Below are positions 2,137 through 10,236 of a DNA stretch of 38,432 nt, piece by piece. The notes beneath the pieces were generated by a model, which saw only the letters and a list, made by a program, of their open reading frames with translations, did not search any database and had not been told where the DNA came from. The stretch is from positions 1 to 38,432 of the forward strand of contig DASVDQ010000046.1 in NCBI GenBank assembly GCA_036381035.1, written 5' to 3'. Numbering within the stretch: position 1 is the first letter of the stretch; each line of letters starts with the position of its first letter. A program made the position numbers and the translations under genes. Source of the stretch: Trueperaceae bacterium. GTDB taxonomy: Bacteria; Deinococcota; Deinococci; Deinococcales; Trueperaceae.

Positions 2137-4536
2137 ATGTTCCCAGGCCACACCCACGCACACGACGAGACCCCGGCGCCACCGCGAGCGACGCGGCCCG
2201 GCGCGCGCTTCCTCGCCCCGTTCGTCGCCGCGCTCGCCCTGCTCGGTGCCGCCTTCGCGCAGCCACCCACGGTCCTGGTCCACCAGTTCGACAGCCAGGA
2301 CCTCCTGCTCGGCGCCGCGCTGGCGTCCGAGGTGGCGGACGCGCTCGAGGAGAGCGCGGTCGTGATCGGGCCGGAGGTGGCGCCCACGGCGGTGCCGCCC
2401 GTTGTCGTCGAGGGCGGCTTCATCAACCCGGTGCGGGTCATAGAGCCCACCGTGATGTTCGGCCCCGCCGGCGCCGACCTGCTGCAGGGCTCCACGGGCG
2501 TGGACGTAGCTGTCACCGGTTACGTCGAGGAGCGAGACGAGCGCCTGAGCCTGTTCGTCGCCGTCGCGCAGGACGGCCGCCTGCGCACCGGCGAGCTGAC
2601 GGCCGACCCCGAGCACCCCGAGCGCCTGGTGCAGCTCGCGGCCGCGTTCGTCGGGGGCGTGCTGGACGAGCTCGACCCCGACGGCGCGCCGCACTACGCG
2701 CGCTCCGCCTCGCCCCCTACTCTCACCGGCGGTTTCGAGGGCCCTTACGGGGACTACGTCCGCGCGATCGCGCTCGCCGGGGCCGCCATGCAGGACGAGG
2801 CGCTGGCCTCCCTGCGCGAGGCCGCGGGCGCCGAGGGCGTGCCCGAGCGCGCCGCGCGCGTCCTGGACGACCTCGAGGCCGTCATCGAGGCGAGCGGCGA
2901 GCCGCCCGCCGACGCCACGTCGGCCGCCCGCCGCGCCCTGTTCTCGATGCAGCGGGCGACGCCGGACATCGCGCTCTCGCGCGCCGCCTTCGCCACGATG
3001 GCCGAGGCCACGGGGCTGCCCTCGGCCAGCGCCTGGGAGGCGGCGCTCGCCGCCAGCGTGAACGACCGCGCCGGCGCCGAGGAGGCCTACGACCGCGCCG
3101 CCTACGACTACGGCGTGGTGGCGCGCCACTCCTTCCTGCTCTCCCGCGGCGAGGAGGGCGACCCGGCGGCCGTCGCCGCGCTCGTCGCCGACCCCGAGGG
3201 CTCCAGCAGCGCGGCGCTGCTGGCGGCTGCGCTCGCCGCCGAGTTCGCCGGCGACGTGGACGGCCAGGTGGCGGCGCTGCAGGCGCTGAACCGCTCGTCG
3301 CCGTTCCTCGCCTACCCGCTGGAGGCGCTCTCGTACGTCTACTTCGACAGGGGCGACGGTCGCGCGGCCGCCGAGGCGCTGGCCGTCGCGGTCGAGCTCC
3401 AGCCCGAGTCCGACCTGTACTGGACGAACCTCGGCTGGGCCTACTACCTGGTCGGCCAGCTCGAGCTCTCGGAGGAGGCGTCGCTGCGCGCGCTCGAGCT
3501 CGACGGCACCCAGTCGGTGGCGGCCTACAACCTCGGTCTCGTGCGCGTCGTCACCGGCAGGCTGGGCGAGGCGATGGCCCCCTACCAGCAGGCGCTGCGC
3601 TTCGACCCCGAGGTGAACGACGAGGCGATCCAGGACCTGCAGAACGCTCTCGCGCTCTACCCCGACGAGCCCGGCGTCGACTACGCCCTCGGGCTCCTGC
3701 TCGAGGCCGACGGCCGTCGCCAGGAGGCGCGCGACGCCTACAGGCGCTTCCTCGAGCGCGCCGGGGAGGGCCAGGCCGACCTCGTCGCCGACGCCGAGGC
3801 CCGCCTGGTGGAGCTGGACAAGCCGCTGCCGCCCATGGAGATCGCCGGCGGGGCGCGGCTCACCCTGGGGGCGCAGGGCCCCGAGGCGACGCCGTTCCAC
3901 CCCGGCGACGAGGTCCACCCGACCTTCGAGCTCAGCACGCCCGGCGACGAGCTGCCCACGCGCGTGCAGGTCCGGGCCGAGCTGCGTCGCCAGGGCGAGG
4001 AGGGCGACCCGCTGGTCGCCAGCGAGGCCGCGGTCGAGGTGCCGCCGGGCGCGGTCGGCTTCGTGGTCGACGGCGTGGCGCTGGCGCTGCCGCAGGACCT
4101 CGCCGAGGGGACGTACCAGATCGAGGTGTCGGCCGTGGGCGGGGAGGGCCAGGTCGCGGAGACCAGCGTCGAGCTCGAGGTCGCGGGCGAGCCGCAGGCG
4201 CTGCGCCAGCTCATCGGCCGGAACCTCACGATGACCGACCTCAGGTCGGGACAGCCGCTCTACTCGGTGAGCGACCTGTCCAGGGCCGGCCAGCTAGTCG
4301 AGGTGCTCGTCGCCGAGCTGCGCTACGCCGCGGACGCCGCCGAGGAGGCGCTGCCCACGGTGGAGACGGGGCGCTTCCAGGGCATGTCGGGCGGCGAGCT
4401 GTTCAGGAGCTCGACGGCGGAGGACGTGGAGGCCTTCCTCGCCTACGTGCTGGCCAGCGGGTCGCGCGACGCGCGCTTCGCGTTCGTGGACGCCTACGCG
4501 CAGTGGGCGCTGGACGGCGCTCCCGAGACGCCCTAG
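2137..4536 (+). CDS. Secreted tetratricopeptide-repeat protein
   Basis: Predicted 799-residue exported protein of unknown function. It has an N-terminal basic stretch, a hydrophobic core (about residues 24-41) and a likely signal peptidase site AFA/Q. The first mature region (about 45-190) has alternating beta and alpha character and no recognised family. The middle (about 385-545) contains TPR units such as the one beginning ESDLYWTNLGWAYYL, then SVAAYNLGLVRVVTGRLGEA and PGVDYALGLLLEADGRRQEA. A beta-rich Ig-like segment follows (about 570-690) and then a helical tail. Such proteins usually serve as scaffolds for complexes in the cell envelope. ATG 2137 is chosen because a Shine-Dalgarno sequence precedes it and the upstream in-frame GTG overlaps the promoter. 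It stands alone, convergent with the next gene. Confidence 0.8.
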   Translation: MFPGHTHAHDETPAPPRATRPGARFLAPFVAALALLGAAFAQPPTVLVHQFDSQDLLLGAALASEVADALEESAVVIGPEVAPTAVPPVVVEGGFINPVRVIEPTVMFGPAGADLLQGSTGVDVAVTGYVEERDERLSLFVAVAQDGRLRTGELTADPEHPERLVQLAAAFVGGVLDELDPDGAPHYARSASPPTLTGGFEGPYGDYVRAIALAGAAMQDEALASLREAAGAEGVPERAARVLDDLEAVIEASGEPPADATSAARRALFSMQRATPDIALSRAAFATMAEATGLPSASAWEAALAASVNDRAGAEEAYDRAAYDYGVVARHSFLLSRGEEGDPAAVAALVADPEGSSSAALLAAALAAEFAGDVDGQVAALQALNRSSPFLAYPLEALSYVYFDRGDGRAAAEALAVAVELQPESDLYWTNLGWAYYLVGQLELSEEASLRALELDGTQSVAAYNLGLVRVVTGRLGEAMAPYQQALRFDPEVNDEAIQDLQNALALYPDEPGVDYALGLLLEADGRRQEARDAYRRFLERAGEGQADLVADAEARLVELDKPLPPMEIAGGARLTLGAQGPEATPFHPGDEVHPTFELSTPGDELPTRVQVRAELRRQGEEGDPLVASEAAVEVPPGAVGFVVDGVALALPQDLAEGTYQIEVSAVGGEGQVAETSVELEVAGEPQALRQLIGRNLTMTDLRSGQPLYSVSDLSRAGQLVEVLVAELRYAADAAEEALPTVETGRFQGMSGGELFRSSTAEDVEAFLAYVLASGSRDARFAFVDAYAQWALDGAPETP

Positions 4537-4618
4537 GGGGCCGGCCGGTCCGGGGAGTGGGCGTCGGCCGCCGGCGGTCGACAGGACGGGCGGCGAGCGG
4601 GCGGGCCGCCCCGTCGCC

Positions 4619-6031
4619 CTAGCCGACCAGGCGCCCCAGCACCCGCGCGCTGGCCAGGAAGGTGCCGGCCGAGGCGCCGAGGGTCGCGAGCACGAACACC
4701 AGCAGCACGCGGGCGGCGCGGTTCGTCCACCAGCCCCTCAGCGTCGTGACGTCGCGCCGCAGGCGCTCGAAGTCGCCGACGTTCGGCTTGCGCAGCCACA
4801 GCTCCACGCCGGCCGCGACGAACCCGGCGCCGAGCAGGGGGTTCAGCGTCGTGAACGGCGCCGCCACGGCCGTGGCCGCGATCGTCAGCGGGTGGGCCAG
4901 GGCGGCCAGGGCGCCGAGGCCCGCGAGCGTGGCGGTGACGATCGTCCAGTCGGTGAGCAGGCGCAGGCCCTCCGCGGGGCTGCGCAGGAACCCGATCGCG
5001 AAGCCGGCCAAGACCAGCACGAGGACCGCCCAGGGGACCACCCTGGTGGCCCGGCTGGGCGGCGGCGTCCTCTCGAGCTCGCGCAGGCGAGCGCGCAGCG
5101 CCTCGCGCGACCTGGGCGCCGTCGTCGCGGGGGCTGTGGCCGCGGCGGCGCCGCCGCCGGCGGGGTCGTCCGCGGCCCGCGCCTCGGCGCCGGGGGCGGC
5201 TGGTGAACCTTCGGGGGAAGCCCCGTCCTGCCCCGGGCCGGCGCCTGGAGAGGCACCTCCGTCGTCGCCCACCACCTCCGCGCCCGCCGCCACCAGCGCA
5301 GCGGTGATGCCCTTGAGGTGGCCCGCGCCCACGACCGCCAGCACGTGCCGGTGCCGCGGGGCGCCGTCGCTCCCCACGGCGAGGAGCAGCTTGGCTGCCA
5401 TGTACTCGTCGCGCTCGGCGATGAGGGGGCCGTAGAGGTCGGCGCGGCTCTGGGCGAACTCGGCGAACGTCGCCTCGAGGACGTCGCCCTCCTTGAGCCT
5501 CTCGATCTCCTCCTCGCCCACCTTCTCGCTGGTGAACGCCGAGGCGAGGATGCCGGCGACGAGGGTCAGCCGGCGCCACCAGCCCACGCCGCCGTAGAGC
5601 CGCCTCAGCGTGACACCGATGTCGCGGTCGATGAGCAGCAGCGGCAGGCCGCGCTCCCTGGCGCCCGTCACCGCGGCGCGCATCTCGGCCCCCGGCTCGA
5701 TGCCGAACTGGTCGGCGAGGCGCTGCTGGAAGGCGCCGAGGGCCAGGTTCACGGCCAGCACGCCGGCCTTGCCCTCGCGCAGCACCTGCATGAGGTCGGT
5801 CTTGGCGTGCGCCTGCGAGTCGGTGATCGCGGCCAGGCGGCCGGCGTCGAGCTCGATGGCCACGGCGTCGTGGTCGCCCGTGGCGACGAGGCGCTCCACC
5901 GCCATGGCCGACGCCTTCGAGACGTGGGCCGTCCCCAGGAGCGTCACGCGCGCGCCGCCCACCGACAGCACCGCCGTGGGCTGCTCGGCCGCGGACGATC
6001 GTGCGACGGGCGCGACGGGGGGCTCGGTCAT
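4619..6031 (-). CDS. TraB/PrgY family membrane protein
   Basis: Member of the TraB family (enterococcal PrgY/TraB pheromone shutdown proteins and related membrane proteins of bacteria, archaea and eukaryotes), whose biochemical activity is unsettled and may be peptidase-like. The conserved GTAHVS motif is at residues 33-38, followed by VAIELDAGRL, the NLALGAFQQRLADQFG segment, LLIDRDIGVTLRRL, and VVGAGHLKGI near 237. Residues 250-310 are a low-complexity Ala/Gly/Pro-rich linker. The C terminus (about 330-470) has several membrane helices and an amphipathic segment between them. Its length of 470 is above the family's usual 390-410 because of the linker. The start ATG is 30 bases from the divergent kinase gene. 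Confidence 0.85.
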   Translation of the reverse strand: MTEPPVAPVARSSAAEQPTAVLSVGGARVTLLGTAHVSKASAMAVERLVATGDHDAVAIELDAGRLAAITDSQAHAKTDLMQVLREGKAGVLAVNLALGAFQQRLADQFGIEPGAEMRAAVTGARERGLPLLLIDRDIGVTLRRLYGGVGWWRRLTLVAGILASAFTSEKVGEEEIERLKEGDVLEATFAEFAQSRADLYGPLIAERDEYMAAKLLLAVGSDGAPRHRHVLAVVGAGHLKGITAALVAAGAEVVGDDGGASPGAGPGQDGASPEGSPAAPGAEARAADDPAGGGAAAATAPATTAPRSREALRARLRELERTPPPSRATRVVPWAVLVLVLAGFAIGFLRSPAEGLRLLTDWTIVTATLAGLGALAALAHPLTIAATAVAAPFTTLNPLLGAGFVAAGVELWLRKPNVGDFERLRRDVTTLRGWWTNRAARVLLVFVLATLGASAGTFLASARVLGRLVG

Positions 6032-6037
6032 GCGCGG

Positions 6038-6043
6038 AGTGTA
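6038..6043 (-). promoter_or_regulatory. -10 box for leaderless traB-like mRNA
   Basis: On the minus strand TACACT is followed by six bases and then the ATG at 6031, so the transcript should start at about the start codon. No Shine-Dalgarno sequence is present. It sits six bases from the opposing -10 box at 6050-6055. Confidence 0.6.
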
Positions 6044-6049
6044 CCTGCA

Positions 6050-6055
6050 TAGAAT
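6050..6055 (+). promoter_or_regulatory. -10 box for leaderless histidine kinase mRNA
   Basis: TAGAAT is followed by six bases and the ATG at 6062, the spacing expected of a leaderless start. It points away from the -10 box at 6038-6043, and the two are separated by only six base pairs. Confidence 0.6.
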
Positions 6056-6061
6056 CGCCGC

Positions 6062-7915
6062 ATGACCCGACCGCTAGGACAGTCGGGCCGCACCGGCGTG
6101 GACAGGGTGGGCGGCCTCTACGAGCAGGTGCGGCTGGCCCGCCTGTGGCTGCCGCTGTCGATCGTCGGCGTGGTGCTGGTGCACCAGCTCCTGATCGTGC
6201 CCCTGCTGCCGCCGTCCGGCCAGTTCTGGGCGCAGCTCCTCTTCTACTCGATCCTCGGACCGCTCGCCACGTACGTGACGCTGAACTGGATCGCCGGCGA
6301 GGCGCGCGAGAAGGAGAGGGCGCAGCTCGAGCTGGCCGAGCTCTACCGCGAGCTGCAGGCCAGCCACGAGCTGCTCGGCTCGATCCAGGGCGTCACCGAG
6401 CGCTTCGCCGCCTCGCCGAGCCTCGAGGCGACCGTGCGGGCCGCGGCCGAGGGCATCGCCGGCGTGACGGGCGCCACCGGCGTGGCCGTCGTGCTCGGGC
6501 CGGAGGGCCTCGGCGTCACGCACGGGCTGGGGCTCGACGACGAGTTCGAGCGCGACGCCCTGAGCCGCGACCAGGAGGCGCGCCGCCGGGCGCGCGAGGG
6601 CGACGTCGGCGTGCGCGTCGACCAGGTGCCGCGTGCGGGCGGCGGGCCGCGCTACGCCCTGACGGCGCCGCTGGTGTGGGGCGGGGAGCCCGAGGGCTCG
6701 GTCACGGCGTACCTGCCCGGCCCGCCTGACGAGCGGGCGCTCGAGTCGTTCTCGATCGTCGCCACGCAGTTCTCGGCCGCCGCCGAGGCCACGCGCCTGC
6801 GCACCCGCGACGTGATGACGCTCGTTGAGGTGGACCGGTCTATCCGCGCCGAGGGGAACCTCGGCCGGCTCCTGAAGAGCGTGCTCACGCAGATGCTGGG
6901 CTTCGTGTCGGCGCCGGTGGGCGGCATCTTCCTCTCCGACGGGGAGGGCCTGCTGCGCCTCGCCGCCACGGTCGGCCGCGACCCGGGACCCGGCGCGCGC
7001 GCCTGGCGGGTGGGCGAGGGGTTCGTGGGGGGCGTGGCGGCGAGGCGGGAGCCGCGCATCGTCGACAGCCTCGCCGAGAACGGGGCGAACGAGTACGGCC
7101 CGCTCCTCGAGGGAGCGCGCAGCGCCCTGGCCGCCCCGCTGCTCGCCGGCGACGAGCTCCTGGGCGTGCTCGTGCTGGCGCACCCGGAGGAGGGCCGCTT
7201 CGACAGGTCGGTGCTGCCGTTCATCGGGCTCGTGGCCGGCCAGGTGTCGCTGGCCATACGCAACGCCAACGCCTACCTGCAGTCCGAGGAGCTGGCGATC
7301 TCGGAGGAGCGCTCGCGCATCGCGCGGGAGATCCACGACGGCGTCGCGCAGATGCTCGCCTTCGCGGCCCTCAAGCTCGACCTGGTGGAGCGCCTGATGA
7401 CCAGGGACCCGGCGAAGGCCGCGGCCGAGCTGGAGCAGGCCAAGGAGACCGTGCGCGAGTCGATAAGGGAGGTGCGCCGCTCGATCTTCGCGCTGCGGCC
7501 CGTCGACCTCGAGCGCTTCGGCTTCGCCGAGACCGTGCGGCGCTACGCCATCGACTTCGGCCAGCAGAACGACGTGCGCGTGACCGTCTCCTTCGGGCCC
7601 CTGCCCGAGCTGTCGCTGAAGTCGGAGGCCGTGCTGTTCCGCATCTTCCAGGAGGCGATGCACAACGTCGCCAAGCACGCCAAGGCGCAGAACGTCGAGG
7701 TGCGCCTCGGCACCACCGAGGACGGCATGGCGTTCGTGGCGGTGCGCGACGACGGCGTGGGGTTCGACGTGGACCAGGTGTCGGACCGCGTCACCAGCGC
7801 CGGCGGGCTGGGCATCAAGCAGATGCGCGAGCGCGTCGAGGCGCGGGGCGGCCGGCTCGAGATCGACGCGGCCCCCCGCCGCGGCACCGAGCTCTACGCC
7901 GCGGTGCCGGTGTGA
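6062..7915 (+). CDS. Membrane-anchored sensor histidine kinase with two GAF domains (NarL/DesK class)
   Basis: Signal-transducing kinase of 617 residues. Two N-terminal membrane helices (about 30-50 and 56-80) form a short anchor without a large external domain. A coiled linker leads to a divergent GAF-like domain (about 110-245) and a clearer GAF domain (about 260-400, SAPVGGIFLSDGEGLLRLAA onward). The HisKA_3 dimerisation helix follows, with phospho-acceptor His425 in SRIAREIHDGVAQM. The ATPase domain carries DDGVGFDV and GGLGIKQMRERVEARGG. This class usually signals to a NarL-type response regulator, but none is present in the window, so the partner is unknown. The GAF domains suggest an intracellular ligand or redox cue; which one cannot be read from sequence. 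Confidence 0.93.
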   Translation: MTRPLGQSGRTGVDRVGGLYEQVRLARLWLPLSIVGVVLVHQLLIVPLLPPSGQFWAQLLFYSILGPLATYVTLNWIAGEAREKERAQLELAELYRELQASHELLGSIQGVTERFAASPSLEATVRAAAEGIAGVTGATGVAVVLGPEGLGVTHGLGLDDEFERDALSRDQEARRRAREGDVGVRVDQVPRAGGGPRYALTAPLVWGGEPEGSVTAYLPGPPDERALESFSIVATQFSAAAEATRLRTRDVMTLVEVDRSIRAEGNLGRLLKSVLTQMLGFVSAPVGGIFLSDGEGLLRLAATVGRDPGPGARAWRVGEGFVGGVAARREPRIVDSLAENGANEYGPLLEGARSALAAPLLAGDELLGVLVLAHPEEGRFDRSVLPFIGLVAGQVSLAIRNANAYLQSEELAISEERSRIAREIHDGVAQMLAFAALKLDLVERLMTRDPAKAAAELEQAKETVRESIREVRRSIFALRPVDLERFGFAETVRRYAIDFGQQNDVRVTVSFGPLPELSLKSEAVLFRIFQEAMHNVAKHAKAQNVEVRLGTTEDGMAFVAVRDDGVGFDVDQVSDRVTSAGGLGIKQMRERVEARGGRLEIDAAPRRGTELYAAVPV

Positions 7916-7943
7916 GGGACGAGCCGCGCCTCCGGCAAGAGAA

Positions 7944-7967
7944 GAGCCCGGCGTACGCGCCGGGCTC
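7944..7967. terminator. Bidirectional hairpin terminator between the histidine kinase gene and rpmE
   Basis: A perfect 10-bp stem, GAGCCCGGCG (7944-7953) with CGCCGGGCTC (7958-7967), closes a TACG tetraloop. It lies in the gap between the 3' ends of two convergent genes. Leftward transcripts would meet TTCTCTTG after the hairpin, rightward ones CGCGTCCTCT, so both sides are weakly U-rich. Confidence 0.8.
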
Positions 7968-8006
7968 CGCGTCCTCTAACGGCGCGCCCCTGGCGGGCGC
8001 CGCCGC

Positions 8007-8228
8007 CTACCTCTTGCCCTGGCGGCGGTAGCTGTCGCCGAAGCGCTTCTGGAACTTCTCGACGCGGCCCTCGGTGTCGATGAAGCGCTGCTCGCCCGTG
8101 TAGAACGGGTGGTTGCCCGACCAGACGTCGACGTGCAGCTCGGGCTTCACGCTGTAGGTCTCCATGACGACCTGGCCGTCGCAGATGACCTTGGTCTTGA
8201 CCATCTTCGGGTGGATGCCTTGCTTCAT
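8007..8228 (-). CDS. rpmE: 50S ribosomal protein L31, zinc-free type
   Basis: Component of the large ribosomal subunit near the central protuberance, bridging to the small subunit. The 73 residues begin MKQGIHPKMV and contain HVDVWSGNHPFYTG and DTEGRVEKFQKRFGDSYRR, typical of L31. In zinc-binding L31 four cysteines hold the metal. Here only Cys16 remains, and the CxxC of the second pair is replaced by Trp36 and Asn39, so this is a C-minus (zinc-independent) form. A GGGAG Shine-Dalgarno sequence precedes the ATG. The promoter lies about 100 bases upstream, leaving an unusually long GC-rich leader. Confidence 0.96.
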   Translation of the reverse strand: MKQGIHPKMVKTKVICDGQVVMETYSVKPELHVDVWSGNHPFYTGEQRFIDTEGRVEKFQKRFGDSYRRQGKR

Positions 8229-8331
8229 GCTCGCGCTCCCTCTCGCGCCCCGCCTCAGCGCGTGGGGCGTCGTGTGCGTCGTCGGGGTGCCCGCCGAGCG
8301 GGCGGCACGGGCCGGTCCCGGCGGAGCGGCC
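8229..8331 (-). promoter_or_regulatory. Structured leader of rpmE, possible L31 autoregulatory element
   Basis: Between the predicted transcript start (about 8331) and the rpmE ATG lie about 100 bases with two hairpins, GCCCGC/GCGGGC around a TCG loop and CGCCCC/GGGGCG around a 12-base loop just before the Shine-Dalgarno sequence. Known L31 leader RNAs of other phyla occupy the same position and mediate autogenous control. Equivalence here is inferred from position and structure only. Confidence 0.35.
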
Positions 8332-8337
8332 CGCGAG

Positions 8338-8346
8338 ATGTTAGCA
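8338..8346 (-). promoter_or_regulatory. Extended -10 promoter for rpmE
   Basis: On the minus strand TGC followed by TAACAT gives an extended -10 box. It lies between the sufE stop and rpmE, so rpmE can be transcribed independently of sufE. Confidence 0.55.
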
Positions 8347-8447
8347 CAAGGACGCGCGCAGGTTCGTGGCGCGCCCCCGGCGCCCGCCCTCGTGAGCCAG
8401 CGTGGGCGCCCCGCCCGCGGCCCGGTCCACGCCGCGGCGCTCCCGCC

Positions 8448-8879
8448 TCAGGCGGCCGACTTCTCCCGCACCTGCCGCTTCACGCGCGTGACGATGGCGC
8501 TCATGCCGCGCAGGCGGAGGGGCGAGATCAGCTCGGAGAGGCCCATCCGCGTGTAGAAGTCCTCCGGGGTGGCCAGCACCTCGGGCGCGGTGGCGCCGCT
8601 GAGCCCCGCGTGCACCACGGAGGCGAAGCCGCGCGTCGTGGGGGCCTCCTCGGGCGCGTCGAAGTGGAGGGCGACGCGGCCGTCGTCGCCCACCTCCGCG
8701 CGGAGGAACAGCGGCGTCTGGCACTCGTGCACCTGCTCGAGCTCGCCCAGTCCCTCGGGCGGCGGCGGGAGCTTCCTGGCGTACTCGAGGAGGAGCGGCA
8801 GGCGCAGCGTCTTCGGCGCCGACGCGAACTCCTCGATGACGCGCGCCAGGGACTCGGGGTAGGCGGCCGTCTCGTTCAC
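8448..8879 (-). CDS. sufE: SufE-type sulfur acceptor protein
   Basis: Accepts persulfide sulfur from a cysteine desulfurase such as SufS and passes it on for iron-sulfur cluster assembly. The 143 residues show the SufE fold signature: KTLRLPLLLEYARKLPPPPE at the N terminus, the acceptor Cys53 in VHECQTPLFL, and the C-terminal GLSELISPLRLRGMSAIVTR. Other suf genes are not adjacent. The GTG start follows a -10 box by six bases with no Shine-Dalgarno sequence, so the mRNA is probably leaderless. The stop codon lies in the loop of a small GCCGCC/GGCGG hairpin. Confidence 0.92.
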   Translation of the reverse strand: MNETAAYPESLARVIEEFASAPKTLRLPLLLEYARKLPPPPEGLGELEQVHECQTPLFLRAEVGDDGRVALHFDAPEEAPTTRGFASVVHAGLSGATAPEVLATPEDFYTRMGLSELISPLRLRGMSAIVTRVKRQVREKSAA

Positions 8880-8885
8880 GGGCCC

Positions 8886-8891
8886 AGGCTA
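8886..8891 (-). promoter_or_regulatory. -10 box for leaderless sufE mRNA
   Basis: TAGCCT on the minus strand is followed by GGGCCC and the GTG start at 8879. The six-base gap and absent Shine-Dalgarno sequence indicate leaderless transcription. Confidence 0.6.
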
Positions 8892-8928
8892 ACGCCTGCG
8901 TCACGGCCGAGCCGTCGCGCCGGCCGGT

Positions 8929-8934
8929 TATCCT
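8929..8934 (+). promoter_or_regulatory. -10 box for leaderless aroA operon mRNA
   Basis: TATCCT is followed by six bases and GTG 8941. The whole intergenic space between the divergent sufE and aroA starts is 61 bases, so both promoters must share it. Confidence 0.55.
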
Positions 8935-8940
8935 CGCCTG

Positions 8941-10236
8941 GTGGCGCTGAAGCTACCCACCAAGCTGCGCGTCGCGCCGCAGGGGCGCCTCACCGGCAGC
9001 CTCGACGTGCCCGGCTCGAAGAGCCTCACGAACCGCGCCCTGCCGCTGGCCGCCCTCGCCGTGGGCACGACCACGATCACGGGGGCCCTCGTCGCCGAGG
9101 ACTCCGCGGTCATGCTGCGCGCGCTCCAGCAGCTCGGCGTGAGCCTCGACGCCATGGGCGAGACCGTCGTCGTGCGCGGCGCGGGCGGGCCGCTCCCGGC
9201 GCGGAGCGCGACGCTCGACGTCAGGCTCTCCGGCACCGCCCTGCGCTTCCTCACCGCGGTGCTGGCCGCGGGGCGGGGCGAGTACGTCCTCGACGGCAAC
9301 GCCCGCATGAGGGAGCGGCCCATAGGCGACCTCCTCGACGCGCTGAGGCAGCTCGGCGCCGCCGCGGAGAGCGCGGGCGGTCGTCCGCCCGTGACCCTGC
9401 GCGCCGACGGCCTCAGCGGCGGGAGCGTGACGGTGAGGGGAGGCGTGAGCTCCCAGTTCCTCTCCGGCCTGCTCATGGCCGCGCCGCTGGCCGAGGGCCC
9501 GCTGACGATCGCCGTGGAGGGCGAGCTGCTCTCGCGGCCGTTCGTCGACATGACGCTGGACGTCATGGCGCACTTCGGCGTCGCGGTGCGGCGCGACGGC
9601 TACCGGCGCTTCGAGGTGACGCCAGGCACCTACCGCGCCCGCGACTACCGCGTCGAGGGCGACGCGATGGCCGCCGGCTACTTCTGGGCCGCGGCCGCCG
9701 TCACCGGCGGCAGCGTGCGCGTGCGCAACCTGGGTGACGGCACCCTCCAGGGCGACGCCCGCCTCGCCGGCGTGCTGGCCGAGATGGGCTGCGACGTCGC
9801 CTGGGCGCGGGACTCCGTGACGGTCGCCGGCCCGCGGCGCCTGCGGGGCGGCGAGTTCGACCTCAACGACATGCCGGACCAGGCCCAGACGCTCGCCGTC
9901 GTGGGGCTCTTCGCCGACTCGCCCGTGCACGTGGCGAACGTCGGCAACCTGCGCGTCAAGGAGACCGACCGCCTGCACGCCATGGCCGTCGAGCTGACGA
10001 GGCTCGGCGCCAGGGTCGAGGAGGGCGACGACAGCCTCACGGTCTGGCCGCTGGCCTCGGAGCCGACGACGCCCGTGGAGCTCGAGACCTACGGCGACCA
10101 CCGCATGGCCATGGCGCTGGCCGTGGCCGGGGCGCGCCTGCCCAACGTCGTGATAAAGGACCCCGCCTGCGTGAACAAGACCTACCCGCGCTTCTTCGAC
10201 GACTTCCTCGGCCTGCTCGGGGCCGGTCTATCATGA
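8941..10236 (+). CDS. aroA: 3-phosphoshikimate 1-carboxyvinyltransferase (EPSP synthase)
   Basis: Transfers the enolpyruvyl group of PEP to shikimate-3-phosphate in the shikimate pathway. The 431 residues contain GSKSLTNRALPLAALA (substrate-binding KS), SGTALRFLTAVLA, GNARMRERPIGDLLDALRQLG, VSSQFLSGLLMAAPLA, NLRVKETDRLHAMA and the C-terminal YGDHRMAMALAVAG. The segment that reads NAGTAMRPL in E. coli is RLSGTALRFL here, so Phe replaces Pro101, a position known to influence glyphosate sensitivity; the phenotype cannot be inferred. It heads an operon, with its stop overlapping the cmk start (ATGA). The aroA-cmk adjacency is common in bacteria. Confidence 0.97.
   Translation: MALKLPTKLRVAPQGRLTGSLDVPGSKSLTNRALPLAALAVGTTTITGALVAEDSAVMLRALQQLGVSLDAMGETVVVRGAGGPLPARSATLDVRLSGTALRFLTAVLAAGRGEYVLDGNARMRERPIGDLLDALRQLGAAAESAGGRPPVTLRADGLSGGSVTVRGGVSSQFLSGLLMAAPLAEGPLTIAVEGELLSRPFVDMTLDVMAHFGVAVRRDGYRRFEVTPGTYRARDYRVEGDAMAAGYFWAAAAVTGGSVRVRNLGDGTLQGDARLAGVLAEMGCDVAWARDSVTVAGPRRLRGGEFDLNDMPDQAQTLAVVGLFADSPVHVANVGNLRVKETDRLHAMAVELTRLGARVEEGDDSLTVWPLASEPTTPVELETYGDHRMAMALAVAGARLPNVVIKDPACVNKTYPRFFDDFLGLLGAGLS

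Follow-up and report, generated by a model that had tools for sequence, protein, structure and literature searches.

The window (the whole stretch of 38,432 nucleotides that was analysed) contains two divergent genes whose start codons are separated by 30 bp (Table 1). The protein encoded on the minus strand matches the TraB family in Pfam (PF01963, E 5.2e-23) and in NCBIfam (TIGR00261 traB, E 1.4e-75), and the plus-strand gene encodes a sensor histidine kinase. These identities, proposed in the initial annotation of the locus, agree with the Pfam and NCBIfam matches. According to the same matches, neither of the two proteins is a DNA-binding regulator. The kinase gene is flanked by traB and, on its other side, by the gene of the ribosomal protein L31; neither neighbour is a response regulator. 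Between the convergent kinase and L31 genes, a perfect 10-bp hairpin (GAGCCCGGCG-TACG-CGCCGGGCTC, 7944-7967) without a T run was noticed by eye, and is possibly a terminator common to both genes.

Table 1. Coordinates of the traB and kinase genes and of the elements located in and around the gap between them.
Feature	Position	Strand	Basis
TraB/PrgY/gumN family protein gene, 470 aa	4619..6031	-	profile matches
Sensor histidine kinase gene, GAF-HisKA_3-HATPase_c, 617 aa	6062..7915	+	profile matches
Gap between the two start codons, 30 bp, with both -10 elements inside, 6 bp apart	6032..6061	.	sequence
-10 element TACACT of the putative traB promoter; six bases, then ATG at 6031	6038..6043	-	sequence; relatives
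-10 element TAGAAT of the putative kinase promoter; six bases, then ATG at 6062	6050..6055	+	sequence; relatives
Predicted traB transcription start, A of ATG (leaderless)	6031	-	inferred from TANNNT-N6-ATG geometry
Predicted kinase transcription start, A of ATG (leaderless)	6062	+	inferred from TANNNT-N6-ATG geometry
-35 position of the putative kinase promoter at a 17-bp spacer, GTCATG, 2/6 to TTGACA; over the traB start codon	6027..6032	+	
-35 position of the putative traB promoter at a 17-bp spacer, GTCATG, 2/6 to TTGACA; over the kinase start codon	6061..6066	-	

The sequence CCTGCA forms the 6 bp that separate the box TACACT (minus strand, 6043-6038) from the box TAGAAT (plus strand, 6050-6055). 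On both strands the distance from the box to the ATG is of exactly six bases, and the arrangement TANNNT-N6-ATG is thus present twice. The letters and positions of the gap and of its two boxes had been given exactly in the initial annotation. After shuffling of the 30-bp gap with its composition kept, both boxes were recovered at their exact places in 19 of 1,000,000 shuffles, and within the offsets 11-14 in 277 of 1,000,000. No Shine-Dalgarno sequence is apparent by eye in either of the six-base stretches between box and ATG. The best -35 match for either promoter is of 2/6 with a spacer of 17 bp and of 3/6 with a spacer of 19 bp, and a sigma-70 scan that requires a -35 hexamer detected neither promoter-like nor terminator-like sites between positions 3000 and 10000. 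An exact 9-bp inverted repeat, GGTCATGCG/CGCATGACC (6026-6034 / 6059-6067), was the sole candidate operator considered; it was rejected, as most of it is made up of the ATGACC with which each gene begins, and a comparison by eye shows other kinase starts in the relatives.

Leaderless genes are marked by the motif TANNNT about 12 bp upstream of the start, a signal described for the Actinobacteria and for the Deinococcus-Thermus, where the value given for it is 39.4% over five genomes (PMC3160421). The same signal was searched in 30 stretches of the present assembly, representing 665,265 bases or about a fifth of its 3.43 Mb, in which 547 genes were called with our own codon-score script and no annotation. 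TANNNT occurs at offset 12 before 49 of 538 starts of longest ORFs versus 1 of 8,895 internal in-frame start codons, and before 49 of 540 starts when those chosen by codon score are used. A leaderless promoter is recognized by a TANNNT motif about 12 bp before the start and by an enrichment of this motif at that offset across the genome, and both features were found here. In the 63 sampled genes with a box at offset 12, no position from -37 to -29 carries more than 0.07 bit; these promoters therefore show no -35 element, and the empty sigma-70 scan says little since the leaderless-type genes of this genome lack the signal that it requires. The strongest upstream preference in these 63 genes is a G at -14 (67%, 0.26 bit), present in the traB promoter and absent from the kinase promoter. 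The boxes of traB and of the kinase gene appear to belong to the TANNNT-N6-ATG leaderless promoter type of the phylum, a point that the initial annotation had missed.

The -10 element of a promoter ends at position -7. Six further bases lead to +1, and both predicted starts therefore fall on the A of the ATG, 31 bp from each other. The kinase start selected by codon score is 6098 rather than 6062, which would mean a leader of 36 bases. With the predicted starts, the spacer and the -35 position of each promoter overlie the -10 element and the start codon of the opposite one, and the core elements from -35 to +1 share DNA, as is the case in overlapping divergent promoters. The geometry bears out the description of two opposed promoters, each with its upstream region inside the other gene. 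The footprint of the RNA polymerase extends roughly from -55 to +20. The footprints on the two promoters would coincide almost fully, and double occupancy is therefore very unlikely.

Divergent pairs with leaderless-type boxes are found elsewhere in the same genome. Among the 67 divergent pairs of the sample, 12 carry a box in front of each gene, 32 in front of a single gene and 23 have none; leaderless pairs are therefore not the rule. In the 12 two-box pairs, the boxes are separated by 6 (traB/kinase), 8, 24, 25, 31, 32, 37, 46, 50, 51, 190 and 221 bp. The traB/kinase pair is the tightest of this graded series, and its overlap at 6 bp seems to lie at the short end of a distribution of spacings. 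A second divergent pair of the window (8879 on the minus strand, 8941 on the plus strand) has the boxes TAGCCT and TATCCT, 37 bp apart; its genes are a SufE/CsdE-like one, whose weak NCBIfam match does not reach the cut-off, and aroA. Another tight pair, on contig C150 of the same genome (G000; 33815 on the minus strand, 33850 on the plus strand), has leaderless-type boxes 8 bp apart.

The conservation of the two boxes was analysed in relatives, from 61 genomes searched for the kinase and from 39 genomes of the family, Trueperaceae, searched for TraB (37 with a match). Including the present one, 24 genomes of the family have traB and the kinase gene as divergent neighbours. The 23 others all belong to this single family and are not independent of each other (seven from genus g11, five from g7, five from g6, four from g16 and two from g14). 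With a box defined as TANNNT followed by a start codon 5-8 bases later, boxes were detected on both sides in 23/23 of these genomes, including G018, whose traB is cut off by the end of the contig, and G024, where the boxes are 589 bp apart. When the gap of each relative was shuffled, both boxes occurred in at most 9 of 20,000 shuffles. The traB-side box reads TACACT or TAGACT in 21 of the 23 relatives, and the start codon that follows it opens the traB frame in 22/22 (the 23rd, G018, being broken inside traB). On the kinase side, the box leads to a start codon of the kinase frame in 19/23; in the other four, all from genus g7, it leads to that of a short out-of-frame ORF. In the listed relatives, tblastn aligns the kinase only from residues 6-22 onwards, so that the N-terminus of the kinase is poorly conserved.

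The spacing of the boxes is free. In the 23 relatives it is of 23, 26, 31, 31, 35, 35, 35, 38, 39, 48, 48, 58, 64, 66, 69, 72, 80, 83, 91, 146, 161, 173 and 589 bp, hence a range of 23-589 bp and a median of 58 bp versus 6 bp here, the latter value coming from one assembly, with all of the 39 family genomes searched belonging to other genera. The boxes nearest to their own gene starts were used in this count: in G024 another candidate box lies on the minus strand, with which the spacing would be 530 bp, and L003 has an additional plus-strand candidate near the traB start. The genomes G002, G004 and G016 were left out, their matches being 559-1,166 bp apart, with in addition an intervening ORF in G002. 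If core promoters are assumed to extend to -36, the spacing leaves room for both core promoters in 14 of the 23 relatives (at least 47 bp) and implies a partial overlap in the nine others (less than 47 bp); these nine leave room for a weak preference for closeness of the boxes. The overlap is not the conserved feature, because the spacing ranges from 23 to 589 bp. Moreover, of the 30 TraB loci examined, 11 were flagged as lacking a kinase in the flank, and eight of these carry the TraB box; the eight include the broken contig of G018, G004 with a kinase about 1.2 kb away and G021 with a box 15 bases before a TTG. The TraB box is therefore independent of the kinase. Judging from these comparisons, what is conserved is each of the two putative promoters, and their spacing and overlap vary.

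Several known systems are comparable with the traB/kinase gap. The leaderless genes of the Deinococcus-Thermus described in PMC3160421 have in common with it the TANNNT motif about 12 bp upstream, the high-GC genome and the low information of the three middle bases. On that description a single promoter of the pair is no different; the difference is that two of them stand here back to back in 30 bp. The prokaryotic bidirectional promoters of PMC12825309 also have divergent starts so close that a bound polymerase should exclude a second one. However, they are defined by one shared -10 element, with starts on either side of it or within it and commonly 10, 18 or 23 bp apart, whereas in the present gap each direction has its own -10 element, the two being separated by 6 bp, and the predicted starts are 31 bp apart. 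In the promoters Pr and Pc of pLS20 (PMC4207663), divergent core promoters likewise overlap in the DNA, but this system has the regulator Rco, operators and DNA looping, and no such regulator is encoded by the traB/kinase pair. The divergent genes lysG and lysE of Mycobacterium tuberculosis (PMC5648196) have overlapping promoters as well, and a leaderless transcript arises from a second lysE promoter; they differ by a gap of 108 bp and by the fact that one of the genes encodes a regulator of the LysR type whose binding site has been tested. The divergent promoters of Escherichia coli are also the topic of PMC4469952.

We consider it highly probable that the gap consists of two separate leaderless promoters with near-independent expression, at most mild mutual interference and no dedicated switch. 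At each of them, the polymerase would start at the start codon that lies six bases after TANNNT and would give an mRNA without 5' leader. It would probably bind in one direction at a time, and both promoters are probably weak because neither has a consensus -35. Five bidirectional promoters of E. coli were tested in PMC12825309. Their basal activity was too weak to make polymerases compete, and losing one direction brought the other no substantial gain; repression of the opposite direction arose when one direction was substantially activated. Near-independence of traB and of the kinase gene is expected from the weakness of the promoters together with these basal-level results, and interference would occur only if one side were strongly activated.

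The initial annotation had proposed that the polymerase cannot occupy both promoters and that the gap is an in-built either-or switch. The exclusion itself is plausible, since starts predicted 31 bp apart make joint occupancy very unlikely; the switch does not find support. A true switch, in which polymerase competition would give reciprocal expression of traB and of the kinase, perhaps through a one-sided activator, could draw on the almost complete coincidence of the footprints, on the repression that strong activation of one direction could cause at the E. coli bidirectional promoters (PMC12825309) and on the overlapping divergent promoters of the pLS20 conjugation switch (PMC4207663). Against it are the free spacing of 23-589 bp in the 23 relatives, the nature of the two proteins, neither of which is a DNA-binding regulator in Pfam or NCBIfam, the lack of any -35 match above 2/6 at a 17-bp spacer in either promoter, the absence of basal competition at the E. 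coli promoters described in PMC12825309, and the fact that the only candidate operator considered, GGTCATGCG/CGCATGACC, is largely the two ATGACC starts. Such a switch is in our estimation very improbable.

It is no more credible, and if anything slightly less so, that one box alone acts as a promoter in vivo, with the other gene being transcribed from elsewhere (for example from inside the opposite gene) or starting at a downstream start codon. The codon-score start of the kinase at 6098 and its poorly conserved N-terminus are in the direction of this explanation, but the N6 distance is exact on both sides and both boxes are present in 23/23 relatives. Finally, TANNNT is a short motif and the -35-based sigma-70 scan is empty in 3000-10000, as would be expected if the two matches had arisen by chance without promoter function. 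The shuffles (19/1,000,000), the enrichment at gene starts (49/538 vs 1/8,895) and the conservation in the relatives make this last explanation exceedingly improbable. The reading retained is that of two near-independent leaderless promoters, and the traB/kinase pair looks ordinary for the phylum.

Under this reading, leaderless promoters reduced to a -10 element would let two divergent genes pack into 30 bp. The family also provides a graded series of spacings (6 to 589 bp), usable for measuring where polymerase competition begins. A further idea, rather improbable in our view, is that compaction in this lineage made one exclusive unit out of two autonomous leaderless promoters. Each start codon would lie in the -35 region of the other promoter, and inducing the kinase promoter would transiently shut off traB, or the reverse, with no regulator bound in the gap. 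If this were true, the relatives with a spacing of 23 to 589 bp would serve as a natural experiment on how polymerases compete.

Some of the relatives have additional small ORFs upstream of the kinase gene. In genus g7, the kinase-side box precedes an out-of-frame ORF of 17-23 codons (L003 1412-1465, L004 1391-1462, L005 1403-1462 and L007 1371-1424, with the kinase on the plus strand). In L003, L004 and L005, the stop codon of this short ORF overlaps an ATG or a GTG in the kinase frame (ATGA, GTGA), an overlap that suggests translational coupling. L014 has, between traB and the kinase gene, an ORF of 89 aa (1202-1471, in the orientation with the kinase forward) with its own leaderless-type box and an ATGA overlap with the kinase frame; it has no match in NCBIfam. 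As a speculation, the short ORFs of genus g7 may be remnants of an 89-aa ORF of the L014 type. Several relatives without an adjacent traB have, before the kinase gene, an ORF whose end resembles by eye that of the L014 ORF, with a SEFRP-like stretch.
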